30,999 bases of DNA, from positions 1 to 30,999 of IMG/VR virus record IMGVR_UViG_3300032285_001053; one strand, 5' to 3'. The DNA is from a virus. The notes beneath the pieces were generated by a model. That model was not told the DNA's origin. It made no database searches and worked only from the letters and a program-made list of their open reading frames with translations. The translations under genes were made by a program, and so were the position numbers. Numbering within the stretch: position 1 is the first letter of the stretch; every line of letters starts with the position of its first letter. Shown piece by piece: positions 19,618 through 24,477 of the stretch.

Positions 19618-19629
19618 ACTAACTAGTTG

Positions 19630-20058
19630 ATGTCCTGGATTTACAATGGTGAAACTGTAGAAGCACTACCTGAAGATTGCGTAGGGTTCGTCTACCTCAT
19701 CACAAACACATCCAACGGGCGCATGTACATAGGCAAGAAACTAGCCAAATTTAAAAAAACCACTTATAAGACTGTAAAACTCAAGAACGGCACTAAGAAA
19801 AAGCAACGAATAAGAAGCAAGATCGACAGCGACTGGCAGACATACTATGGGTCCAGTGATGAATTGCTGAAGGATCTCGAGCAGTTAGGCGCAGATACGT
19901 TTACAAGAGAGATACTTTTCTATTGTAAAAGCAAGGCAGAATGCAGTTATATAGAGGCTAGAGAGCAGTTTTCGCGCAGGGTCCTGGAGTCAAAAGACTA
20001 TTATAATGGCCAGATTTCTGTGCGTGTACATGGCTCGCATATACTCCGACTCCAATAA
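19630..20058 (+). CDS. GIY-YIG family nuclease
   Basis: The 142-residue product has the GIY-YIG nuclease core. The first strand pair is GFVYLITNTSNGRMYIGKK (residues 19-37, with VYL and YIG replacing GIY and YIG). A Lys-rich insertion follows, then SDWQTYYGSSDELLKDL, TFTREILFYC and a helix with SYIEAREQF that supplies the likely catalytic Glu near residue 109. No obvious DNA-binding tail (NUMOD or zinc finger) is present, so it is a stand-alone compact nuclease and not a classic long homing enzyme. An in-frame TTG three bases earlier is a less likely start. It closes the early operon. It may be a homing-type endonuclease or a repair or processing enzyme; the sequence does not decide. Confidence 0.85.
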   Translation: MSWIYNGETVEALPEDCVGFVYLITNTSNGRMYIGKKLAKFKKTTYKTVKLKNGTKKKQRIRSKIDSDWQTYYGSSDELLKDLEQLGADTFTREILFYCKSKAECSYIEAREQFSRRVLESKDYYNGQISVRVHGSHILRLQ

Positions 20059-20559: not shown

Positions 20560-21390
20560 ATGAAGATCCTTGACATTATATCCGAACAAACAATTCCTTC
20601 TGCAGGACCTCCTACAGATCCTGAAGGATTTCTCAAGTGGTATATCAAGAACAAACCTCCTGGTGTCACTGTTATAGAAGAACCCAAGGGATCTTGGTTT
20701 GCTAAACAGAAACATCAATATGAACAGTTCGATGATATCTATAAGAAGAAATGGGGAGCCGGACTATACAAGGCATTTGCTGCCGCAGGTATAGTTGTTG
20801 CTGTATTGCAATATCACGGCACTATGTTGCTGATCAACGATGCTTTGGTCAAGAAATCTATCAGCCCTGAGGACGCAGTAAAATTCCGCAATCAAGTAGC
20901 TGGTTGGTGCGTTATCAGTGTAATTGTTCCTCGATTGATCGCCAGCCTTGCCAGTGGATTAGCAGGCATGCTGATAGGAGCACTGCTGGAATCTATTGCG
21001 GCTTTGGGCGGCAGAGCTGGTGCAAAAGCCAAGCTGATACTGGGTCTAGGAGTTGCAGGCGTCAATGTGATAGTTACCTACATAGTCAGCAGTCCTACTG
21101 GACAAAAATACATGGCTGAAAGCATATTCTTGCCTATCATAGCAGGTGGTATAGGCGAACCTATACTGCAAGCATGGGACTGGATGTGGAATTCTGTGCG
21201 TGATAAATTACCGCCAGAAGCACAGCAAAAGATGGATTCGATATCGGGTACTCCTGAGCTGGATCAAGCAGAACGAGATGTCAAAGCATCTCAACAGGAC
21301 ATAGATTCAGCAACACAGGGATGGCAAGAACGTAAGGCCGCAGAACGTGCTAGGAATTTAGATTGGTTGCGTAAGACAGCAGAACCTTAA
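20560..21390 (+). CDS. Late multi-spanning membrane protein, function unknown
   Basis: The 276-residue product starts MKILDIISEQTIP. I prefer ATG 20560 to the in-frame ATG at 20521, because the latter lies inside a hairpin and upstream of the late promoter. Residues 1-68 are soluble and Pro/Lys rich. Hydrophobic segments lie at about 72-93, 113-149 (long, Ala/Gly/Leu rich, possibly two passes), 158-177 and 188-204. The C-terminal 70 residues are charged and helical, with many Gln, Glu and Arg. I do not recognise a family. A late promoter and its place among tail genes suggest a virion or assembly role, or a membrane role at entry or lysis; none is shown. The stop overlaps the stop of the convergent frameshift frame by 4 bases. 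Confidence 0.8.
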   Translation: MKILDIISEQTIPSAGPPTDPEGFLKWYIKNKPPGVTVIEEPKGSWFAKQKHQYEQFDDIYKKKWGAGLYKAFAAAGIVVAVLQYHGTMLLINDALVKKSISPEDAVKFRNQVAGWCVISVIVPRLIASLASGLAGMLIGALLESIAALGGRAGAKAKLILGLGVAGVNVIVTYIVSSPTGQKYMAESIFLPIIAGGIGEPILQAWDWMWNSVRDKLPPEAQQKMDSISGTPELDQAERDVKASQQDIDSATQGWQERKAAERARNLDWLRKTAEP

Positions 21391-21620
21391 AGCAAGGGCA
21401 TTTGCGCGGCCTTGGTCGATTCTATATTTTCTTTGATAATTTCATACATAAGCTCGATATCCTCTACGCTGTAACGATCGAACAGATCGTTAGCAGTGAC
21501 TCCACCTCGCATGTACCAGCTGACTCTATAGATGCTGGTCTTGAAATTCTTAACTTGTTTGTCTAGCCTAACTAAGTATTCTTCGATCTCAGAGTTAGAG
21601 AGTCTAGTTAGGCTTTGGCG
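21387..21620 (-). CDS. -1 frameshift extension of the gp26-like protein (77 codons)
   Basis: Immediately after the slippery site, the -1 frame is open for 77 codons. It reads RQSLTRLSNSEIEEYLVRL, then NFKTSIYRVSWYMRGGVTA, DLFDRYSVEDIELMYEII and a tail ending QMPLL. The composition is clearly protein-like: amphipathic helices and the WYMRGG block. Between the last upstream in-frame stop (near 21667) and the WYMRGG methionine there is no ATG, GTG or TTG, so the full frame cannot be started on its own. The simplest reading is that it is made only as a fusion of about 349 residues (272 from the gp26-like frame plus 77). The internal ATG would give only about 40 residues. Confidence 0.75.
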   Translation of the reverse strand, partial: RQSLTRLSNSEIEEYLVRLDKQVKNFKTSIYRVSWYMRGGVTANDLFDRYSVEDIELMYEIIKENIESTKAAQMPLL

Positions 21621-21638
21621 AAAAAACGCGACTGCTCC
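21565..21638 (-). promoter_or_regulatory. Programmed -1 ribosomal frameshift signal
   Basis: On the minus strand the codons CGT TTT TTC contain the heptamer T TTT TTC (21626 to 21620), a classical X XXY YYZ slip site. Upstream by 8 nt is GGAG (21638 to 21635), which could act as an internal SD stimulator as in dnaX. Downstream by 5 nt begins a perfect 10-bp stem, AGCCTAACTA (21614 to 21605) pairing with TAGTTAGGCT (21574 to 21565) around a 30-nt loop. The zero-frame stop TAA lies inside the 5' arm. Confidence 0.8.
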
Positions 21639-22435
21639 ATCAGCAGTGTAGTTTCTTCTTCGTGCTCACAACTAGGACATTTGACAGGAATACGCGGCAC
21701 ATCGAAATTGCTACGATTAGCTTCAATCTGTTTGCGCACTCTTTCAAAAATTTCTTGATCCACATTCTTTAGCCATTCGTCGATGTAAGAACGTTCTTCT
21801 ACTAGACCTTCGGAAATTTCAACGCCTTCGATCTGTGCTATCATCAGATCTCTCTGTAGCATGGCCATATCTTCCATGGCTTTTCTGACTTCGTCTATAT
21901 GATCGTCGGGATTTTCCAAGGCGGCTAGCTGTAGCAGTGTTCTCTGCAGATTAAAATTGCGTATCTGGAACGCTGTGTATTCTTTAAACGTTAAAGGACG
22001 TATCTTGACTGTGAATTCTTTAGCCGGAACACTGCTTTCAAATTTTGCGCTGGCAAAATGTTTAATGATATTGCCCAGATCGATTTCGTAGTCGTTTAGT
22101 TCTTGGCAAGCACTACAAGTGTGTTTGATCTCCATCTCGTTGCCATAGGTAGCGATCCTTATAGCAGCCATGATAAATTCTAGATCTAGTATGCTGAGGT
22201 CTGACGCATCAGTAATATTGGGCATACAGCTCTGTATGATACGCATAGTGCTTTCTCCCGACAGCAGTGCGTCCGGAGTCTTGCTGATAATTTCATCCAT
22301 GCCGGTCATACCATATACTGGTATTTGCACAGGATCTCCTAAGATAGTTCCGGGACGGTTAAACGCACCTTTGCTAGGTAAGTCGACATATATCTTAGGT
22401 TGCCTAAAATATTTTTTTAATGGGTTTTCTGCCAC
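21608..22435 (-). CDS. gp26: Baseplate hub assembly protein, gp26-like (T4_baseplate family)
   Basis: The 275-residue zero-frame product starts with GTG (MAENPLKKYFRQPKIYVDLP). The N-terminal YVDLPSKG, then VYGMTGMDE and TPDALLSGESTMRIIQSC, followed by IMAAIRIATYGNEMEI, fit the gp26-like hub proteins of T4-type phages. Two CxxC pairs (C107-C110 and C253-C256) could form one zinc site bringing the ends together. GGAGA lies 6 nt before the GTG, with a consensus TATAAATA further upstream. The 3' end carries a frameshift signal, so a longer form is expected. It is the only minus-strand gene in the right half, lying back to back with the probable tape-measure gene. T4 gp26 acts with gp51 and gp28 in hub assembly; the same role here is inferred. 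Confidence 0.8.
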   Translation of the reverse strand: MAENPLKKYFRQPKIYVDLPSKGAFNRPGTILGDPVQIPVYGMTGMDEIISKTPDALLSGESTMRIIQSCMPNITDASDLSILDLEFIMAAIRIATYGNEMEIKHTCSACQELNDYEIDLGNIIKHFASAKFESSVPAKEFTVKIRPLTFKEYTAFQIRNFNLQRTLLQLAALENPDDHIDEVRKAMEDMAMLQRDLMIAQIEGVEISEGLVEERSYIDEWLKNVDQEIFERVRKQIEANRSNFDVPRIPVKCPSCEHEEETTLLMEQSRFFAKA

Positions 22436-22465: not shown

Positions 22466-22473
22466 TATTTATA
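22466..22473 (-). promoter_or_regulatory. Late promoter (TATAAATA) for the gp26-like gene
   Basis: The minus strand carries a perfect TATAAATA, 30 nt before the GTG start at 22435. The predicted start site is about 22460, next to that of the opposing promoter, so each promoter sits inside the other transcript. Confidence 0.7.
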
Positions 22474-22497: not shown

Positions 22498-24477
22498 ATG
22501 GCAGAAATATCACAAGCTTCGATTGATAAACTAAACGCTACCTTAGATAGACTAGCTGGAACTGATAGCAGTTACGCCGGAGGCGGTCCGCTACTACCTG
22601 GCGGTTCTAACAACAGTGCCATAGGAGATGCGTTGGCACGTTTTGGTATCGATTTCGGTAGGCATGTTGGAGAATTTGGCAATAAGGTCATGATGTTCAA
22701 CGCTACCTTGCCTGATCTAGTTGCAGGTTTGAAAGATCTAGGCAAATTAGCAGGACCGCTTGGTATCGCTGCCGCTGAGATAAGCCAATTTGGCGCGGGT
22801 GTTGCACAGCGATTAGTTAATCAACTACAGACTGGTGCCAATATAGGATTAGGTGGAACTGGAAATGCAGTATCTTTTAATCAGACACTGGCTGGTCTCA
22901 GAGTAAATCCTGAAGAAGCTATCAAATTCCTAGATCAGTATGCTAACTACCTAAGAGAGTTAGGCCCTGATCAGAGAGCAGTTGCAGATAGATTCTCGGA
23001 GATGTCGCAAGCCATTGCTAATGGTGATGACGGTGTCTTGAAACGACTCACTGACATGAATGTCACTACTGAGCAATTTAATATTTTGCTAGCACAGACA
23101 GCAAAGCGTTATGGTACAGTAGATGCTCTAAACAGAACTAATCAACAACAGTTTGGCGAAGAGATGGTCAAGATGGCTGTTACTTTGAAAGAAAATACAG
23201 CATTGTTTGGTACTTCTGTCAATAAACAATTAGAATCTACAAAAGAACAGACAGATTCAGCAGAAGTTTTTGCTAAAACACAGATGCTACGGTCGCAACC
23301 CGGAGGTGAAGCTAGAGCCGCCGACTTAGAAAAGACCTTGGCCATTACTGCTGGTATGCCAGCAGTGCTACGTGATGCTGTTAATCAAGCACTGACACGT
23401 CAAGGCGGCATGATAGTTGGCCCAACAGCTGAAGCTATTAACTCGCTTAATGGCCGTGCGCTGACAGAAATGATGCGTTTAGGACGCATTATGCAGACTG
23501 GAAATGATGCAGAACGTCAAGCGGCTATGGCTGAGTTTAGAAAACTTCCGGCTATGTTTGATAATAAATTGACACAGAGTTTTGTAGCTAACAGACAAGT
23601 TAGTCCCGAAGCTAGACAACTTTATCAAGAACTAGTACCATTGTTTAGAGGTTACAATCAATCAAGAGCTGCCGCTCCGGGTGTAGATCCTTATAGAAAT
23701 ATTACCGAAACTCAAAGACTTCAAAGTGTAGGAATTGCAACTACTCCGCAACAAAATGGAACACAACCGGGTCAATATGATCAAGGTAGGGAAACTACAG
23801 TCCTAGTTAACCAAATCAACAATGCTCTTAAACAAGCTGGAGTTGGCGCAGCCGATGCTATCGGGGAAGTCAACAAGCAGATGACCAAGTTAGGCGGTAC
23901 TATAGACAAGATGGTAAACAGTGAAGTGATGCAGAATCCATCCTACTTGTCGGATAAGATTAAACAGTATGTTCGAGAGCAGACAGCGGCAGGTGTAGCT
24001 GGCGGACAGATATTACAGGATTTGTCATCACAAGATGCTTTAAAACGCATTTTTGGTATACAGAGTAGAGCAGATACAACATTTGGTGCTACGGGCGATC
24101 CGTTTGAATCTGGTTCGTTGGTATCGTCTATCAACGAAAATCCATCAGGGAAAAATAGAGAAGGCGTATTTTCTCAAGGACAGATCGACAGTATAGTTAG
24201 AACAGCACTTATTTCTGGAGATGCTACAAAAAATGGAGCACCGTCTATTGGAGAAATTGGAAAAGTTGCTACTAAGATAAGCGACGCTGTATCTAGTGCA
24301 ATGCCTACAAATAATGAACAGGCTTTTACTGGTACAAAGACTCAAGATGATGTCGTATCTGCTTTAGACGGGTTAAATAAGACAGTATCAGAATTAGTAT
24401 CATTGCAAAGACAGAGTAATAAGATTACAGAATCTGGATTGAATAAAGTCGCTGACGCTAATAGCGTCTATGGTTAA
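22498..24477 (+). CDS. Probable tail tape-measure protein
   Basis: The 659-residue product is almost wholly helical, with a Gly-rich N-terminal linker near 25-40. A hydrophobic Ala/Gly/Leu stretch lies at about 80-120 (LGKLAGPLGIAAAEISQFG and following). Long Gln/Glu/Ala/Arg helices run to the C-terminus, ending VSELVSLQRQSNKITESG. This is the usual look of a tape measure, and the segment QTGANIGLGGTG then LRVNPEEAIKFLDQY resembles tape measures of marine T4-like phages as I recall them. T4 gp29 has 590 residues for a tail of about 100 nm, so 659 residues would suit a similar tail. The neighbour on the other strand is gp26-like, and in T4 gene 29 is in the same hub cluster. It could be another internal virion protein. 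Confidence 0.55.
   Translation: MAEISQASIDKLNATLDRLAGTDSSYAGGGPLLPGGSNNSAIGDALARFGIDFGRHVGEFGNKVMMFNATLPDLVAGLKDLGKLAGPLGIAAAEISQFGAGVAQRLVNQLQTGANIGLGGTGNAVSFNQTLAGLRVNPEEAIKFLDQYANYLRELGPDQRAVADRFSEMSQAIANGDDGVLKRLTDMNVTTEQFNILLAQTAKRYGTVDALNRTNQQQFGEEMVKMAVTLKENTALFGTSVNKQLESTKEQTDSAEVFAKTQMLRSQPGGEARAADLEKTLAITAGMPAVLRDAVNQALTRQGGMIVGPTAEAINSLNGRALTEMMRLGRIMQTGNDAERQAAMAEFRKLPAMFDNKLTQSFVANRQVSPEARQLYQELVPLFRGYNQSRAAAPGVDPYRNITETQRLQSVGIATTPQQNGTQPGQYDQGRETTVLVNQINNALKQAGVGAADAIGEVNKQMTKLGGTIDKMVNSEVMQNPSYLSDKIKQYVREQTAAGVAGGQILQDLSSQDALKRIFGIQSRADTTFGATGDPFESGSLVSSINENPSGKNREGVFSQGQIDSIVRTALISGDATKNGAPSIGEIGKVATKISDAVSSAMPTNNEQAFTGTKTQDDVVSALDGLNKTVSELVSLQRQSNKITESGLNKVADANSVYG

Follow-up and report, generated by a model that had tools for sequence, protein, structure and literature searches.

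The minus strand of a 30,999-nucleotide stretch of DNA from a bacterial virus (IMG/VR record IMGVR_UViG_3300032285_001053, positions 1 to 30,999; the whole stretch is called the window in the following) carries a gene resembling gp26 of phage T4, which ends shortly after a run of T, and a second, protein-like frame shifted by -1 begins at this run. This raises the question whether both frames are joined by programmed frameshifting into a longer protein, and what the role of the short and the long form might be. An earlier note, made from the letters of this DNA alone, had proposed such a frameshift, and all coordinates it gave for GGAG, T TTT TTC, spacer, stem, TAA and -1 frame were borne out on the minus strand (Table 1). 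In the zero frame the heptamer is read as cgT TTT TTC (R-F-F), with GGAG 8 nt upstream, and a shift by -1 at this place would give a fusion of 270 + 79 = 349 aa.

Table 1. Positions of the elements of the predicted frameshift locus and of its surroundings in the window
Feature	Position	Strand	Remarks
T4-type late promoter TATAAATA	22466..22473	-	upstream of the gp26-like gene
TAC-N, gp26-like zero-frame gene	21608..22435	-	275 aa, GTG start, RBS ggag; PF12322 / phrog_150
SD-like GGAG	21635..21638	-	in 1/35 loci
Slippery heptamer T TTT TTC	21620..21626	-	exact in 33/35 distinct loci
Spacer between heptamer and stem	21619-21615	-	5 nt
Hairpin 5' arm AGCCTAACTA	21605..21614	-	kept in 10/10 clade members
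Zero-frame TAA, end of the short form	21608..21610	-	9 nt 3' of the heptamer
Hairpin 3' arm TAGTTAGGCT	21565..21574	-	arm codons low in synonymous change
TAC-C, -1 frame extension	21387..21626	-	79 aa from FF, stop included; dN/dS 0.25
Stop of the -1 frame	21389-21387	-	
659-aa protein	22498-24477	+	divergent from the gp26-like gene, just before the portal-like gene

The slippery heptamer among relatives

Relatives were collected from annotated phages and viral contigs, which after removal of duplicates gave 35 distinct loci, the window included. The window's own clade has ten members and was used for the dN/dS, hairpin and synonymous-change tests. Within the window, the heptamer is no more common than expected by chance (9 observed and 9.25 expected from shuffling), so the case rests on the comparison among relatives. 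In 33 of the 35 distinct loci, down to an identity of about 20%, the homologous site has an exact T TTT TTC, and a related -1 open reading frame comes after it. The heptamer of these loci falls on the final FF codons and lies 3-33 nt ahead of the zero-frame stop, and the -1 frame that follows has 71-79 codons. The residue preceding FF is variable (R, N, S, H, Y, G), and its third base is constantly T. Given the amino acids and the pooled observed codon usage, the chance of finding the heptamer is 0.11-0.17 per locus; multiplied over the loci this gives about 10^-29, which was not taken as a probability because shared ancestry is ignored in the product. LR756511, a huge phage of 595 kb, likewise combines T TTT TTC with a -1 frame that is open. 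The exceptions among the 35 loci are Xanthomonas phage XacN1, in which T TTT TTT replaces T TTT TTC and the -1 frame is still open, and Bacillus phage SP-15, in which a frame other than -1 is open downstream.

A T6 run might also be a place where RNA polymerase slips instead of the ribosome, so that mRNAs coding for the fusion would be formed. The homopolymer run and the phase would be the same in this case, and the run of seven T in XacN1 would agree with it. However, the run is fixed at six T followed by C in 33 of the 35 loci and was not lengthened, the phase of T TTT TTC is exact, and the hairpin lies at a spacing typical of ribosomal shifting. Moreover, six T is a short run for bacterial transcriptional slippage. 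Polymerase slippage is thus considered improbable, and we infer that it is the ribosome that slips on T TTT TTC.

Coding capacity of the -1 frame

Across the ten-member clade, the -1 frame had a median dN/dS of 0.25, whereas the two remaining frames gave 0.87 and 1.59. The -1 frame is free of gaps throughout the clade, and variation is found mostly at its own third positions. Judged by these substitution patterns, it is under purifying selection in the window's clade. Identity to the window amounts to 53-72% for the C domain versus 44-50% for the N domain. With the 79-aa -1 peptide alone as query, tblastn located the corresponding site of Agrobacterium phage Atu_ph07 (E 0.01), and that of Phosso was matched weakly (E 0.2, above the usual cut-off). 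On the evidence of the alignments, the -1 frame truly codes for protein and is not a product of chance.

A coding region at this place could also be a small gene in its own right, whose translation is coupled to that of gp26 or re-initiated past its stop, and no fusion would then be made. In some records the open reading frame is indeed annotated as a gene of its own, and in the distant relatives 121Q, Phosso and Atu_ph07 an ATG of the second frame lies across the stop or next to it, so that coupled re-initiation is possible there; the heptamer is kept in all three. As the earlier note had suggested, homologues were checked for a start or ribosome site of their own and for loss of the heptamer, and the heptamer turned out to be kept and nearly the whole clade to be without a start. 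In the window there is no ATG, GTG or TTG within the first 30 codons of the -1 frame, and nearly all clade members likewise lack these codons before -1-frame residue 30, the exceptions being L021, whose codon 15 is ATG, and L030, which has two TTG ahead of the slip site. In addition, the -1 frame keeps its FF-R junction, located 5' of the stop (F1 F2 R3 invariant in the alignment), and a separate gene leaves the conservation of the heptamer unexplained. A separate small gene is accordingly very improbable as an alternative to the fusion. An overlap that is decayed or without function, or one gene split by an error in sequencing, might be suspected from a single contig with a zero-frame stop near the end of the family profile, but the same arrangement occurs in dozens of independent assemblies and isolates and the -1 frame is under purifying selection, which leaves this explanation with a practically negligible probability.

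RNA structure around the slip site

The stem downstream of the heptamer is a perfect 10 bp. The stem region was calculated to fold with -16.5 kcal/mol (z = -2.9), and none of 200 shuffles was as stable. Each of the ten clade members has a hairpin at a distance of 5-9 nt, and 90% of the hairpin cells were paired over the 10 sequences, versus 14-52% when the partner was slid. Changes within the clade comprise one compensatory exchange (U-A/A-U) and several G-U pairs. Covariation was a weak control, with the score matched by 50 of 500 shuffles of the 10 clade sequences, and it barely exceeded shuffling because the arms hardly vary. Synonymous difference was 0.15 in the arm codons versus 0.47 elsewhere (Mann-Whitney p = 5e-4; 7 vs 62 codons), so that the arms are under more constraint than the protein imposes.

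Other strong hairpins were found in Atu_ph07, Phosso and XacN1. In RaK2-type phages the hairpin is mostly weaker or absent while the heptamer persists, and thus the hairpin may be helpful only. Alignment of the homologous loci, which had been proposed in order to see whether slip site, stem and -1 frame go together, showed that heptamer and -1 frame are kept together; the stem is kept with them in the clade, and in RaK2-type phages it is not at the same place. Of the three stimulating elements that had been claimed, heptamer and hairpin are conserved. The third, the SD-like GGAG, was not confirmed as such, and since it is not conserved it is probably incidental. Stimulation of the dnaX kind by an SD-like motif was rejected for the same reason.

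Programmed -1 frameshifting, with a predicted fusion of about 349 residues beside the 275-residue form as the earlier note had it, is strongly supported by the conserved heptamer, the selected -1 frame and the hairpin of the clade. Most ribosomes would stop at TAA and release the short form, whereas a minority would slip by -1 on T TTT TTC, aided by the hairpin 5-6 nt downstream, and produce the 349-aa form.

Identity of the short and long forms

In a Pfam profile search, the 275-aa product matched PF12322 with an E value of 4.7e-18, which is over the curated cut-off, and a PHROG search gave phrog_150, 'baseplate hub', with an E value of 2.5e-22. Fold matches in BFVD were likewise gp26-type 'baseplate hub' proteins. 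The AlphaFold model of the short form is well folded (pLDDT 86). C107/C110 and C253/C256 are invariant in 14 diverse homologues, and these two CxxC pairs suggest a zinc site. Comparison of the model with solved chaperone structures gave no significant PDB match, and such an absence proves nothing. In a fold search among predicted structures, the short form resembled uncharacterised proteins of 450-550 aa from other giant phages, namely Special G, RSF1, RP12, PS1 and Eowyn, with 10-14% identity; on these models it is possible that they are chaperones as well.

The extension was predicted by AlphaFold to be a helical domain (mean pLDDT 84). A search of solved structures returned only common helical arrangements, none of them convincing, and when the window's C domain was compared with Pfam and PHROG, only weak or chance names came up. 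The C domains of 7 relatives are covered by phrog_18291, to which no function is assigned.

In some relatives, the surroundings of the gene speak for a role in tail assembly. In SP-15, LIS04 and Mel-JY01, the relatives are located directly after the tail tube gene. The next long gene in SP-15 and LIS04 encodes the tape measure protein according to PHROG match and annotation, and the gene order of these two phages equals the lambda V-G-GT-H layout; in Mel-JY01 a long unnamed open reading frame comes next after the gp26 relative, which apparently has the same placement. In the window, the gp26-like gene does not lie between recognised tube and tape measure genes, and its neighbour is the divergent 659-aa protein. 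This protein had no match in phage records, in Pfam (above cut-off) or in PHROGs, nor, when considered as a tape measure protein, did it match RaK2_00088, and its detected clade relatives are only about 22-25% identical over the length. It is possible that it is the tape measure protein. The late promoter motif TATAAATA precedes the gp26-like gene in 8 of 8 clade loci checked; over the whole window it is no more frequent than chance, and therefore its conservation is the evidence. Elsewhere in the window, a 143-aa open reading frame on the plus strand (19627-20058), which contains GFVYLITNTSNGRMYIGKKL, looks like a GIY-YIG endonuclease.

The gp26-like product fits better as a tail assembly chaperone than as a baseplate hub component, and the evidence supports reading the name 'baseplate hub gp26' in this sense. 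Very probably, the locus is a tail assembly chaperone of the lambda G/GT type, with TAC-N (275 aa) and a frameshifted TAC-NC (349 aa) encoded on one late transcript. TAC-NC would gain an extra C-terminal domain, helical in the model. On the model of lambda G/GT, a coat of many TAC-N and few TAC-NC copies would form on the tape measure protein, and tail tube subunits would be drawn in by the C domain before both forms leave the tail.

Relation to known systems

Frameshifting of the lambda G/GT type is textbook knowledge. In T4-like phages, frameshifting is reportedly kept in several groups, and T4 is said to use genes 26 and 51 instead, with gp26 as TAC-N and gp51 as TAC-NC. T4 gp26, T4 gp51 and the window's protein all match PF12322. 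The difference lies in the long form: T4 has a second gene for it, gp51, in which the N domain is repeated, whereas the window has one gene and a -1 shift. Beyond its match to PF12322, T4 gp51 has about 48 extra C-terminal residues, as would follow if the long form had a gene of its own in T4. Homology of this tail to the -1 domain, proposed by eye (FKLLVNPDEI vs FRxxLLxxxPEEI), was rejected because 260 of 1948 shuffles scored as well; hhalign of the T4 gp51 tail with the -1 domain was also negative.

A 2016 review excepted T4 from lambda-type G/GT frameshifting (PMC5009743). The statement of the earlier note that no frameshift had been described in T4-type gp26 genes needs correction, as one was published by Vladimirov, Gautam and Davidson in 2022 (Virology 566:9-15), to judge by the papers that cite this work: PMC12846349 does so for poly-T -1 signals in the TAC-N genes of T4-like phages, and PRFect (PMC10885494) for the solution with two genes that some T4-like phages use. 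Since the same frameshift trick is known in related phages, the window represents a clear new example and not a new phenomenon.

With lambda gpG/gpGT, the locus would by analogy share an abundant short form and a longer form made by a -1 shift near the gene end, and in members of the family (SP-15, LIS04) the gene is likewise placed between tail tube and tape measure. Differences are the slip site (G GGA AAG in lambda, T TTT TTC in the window), the larger N domain with two CxxC pairs, and the position of the window's gene outside any recognised tube-chaperone-tape measure operon. The combination of a heptamer and a downstream hairpin is also found in dnaX, but there shifting leads to a shorter product and the upstream SD is a real one, whereas the SD-like motif of the window is not conserved. 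In the chaperone gene of phage Adele (Vandenendeviridae/Andersonviridae), TAC-N ends in a poly-T -1 site that is conserved, and in every genome the -1 frame remains open (PMC12846349); the motif there is GTTTTT, compared with TTTTTTC in the window.

Possible other recoding modes in the family

At the 3' end of the gp26 homologues of SP-15, LIS04, SagM-GXN1, LR756508 and Mel-JY01, a C-like domain lies in the -2/+1 frame, which suggests that recoding works differently there or that the domain has a start of its own. In LIS04 an ATG is present in the frame of the C domain upstream of the stop, and a separate start is therefore possible there. A tentative reading, in which we have less than even confidence, is that one chaperone family reaches its long form by at least three routes: a -1 shift on T TTT TTC in the window's clade and most of the jumbo phages seen, a -2 or +1 shift in SP-15, LIS04, SagM-GXN1, Mel-JY01 and LR756508, and gene duplication in T4.

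Implications

The phage records that were examined leave the shifted domain without annotation, truncate it or enter it as a hypothetical gene of its own, and the long chaperone is therefore absent from their gene lists. The strongly conserved T TTT TTC in giant T4-like phages offers a simple annotation rule, and the site lends itself well to use as a reporter of -1 shifting at runs of U. If the three or more routes to the long form are true, the family would be a natural series for studying how the mode of recoding changes while the product is kept.
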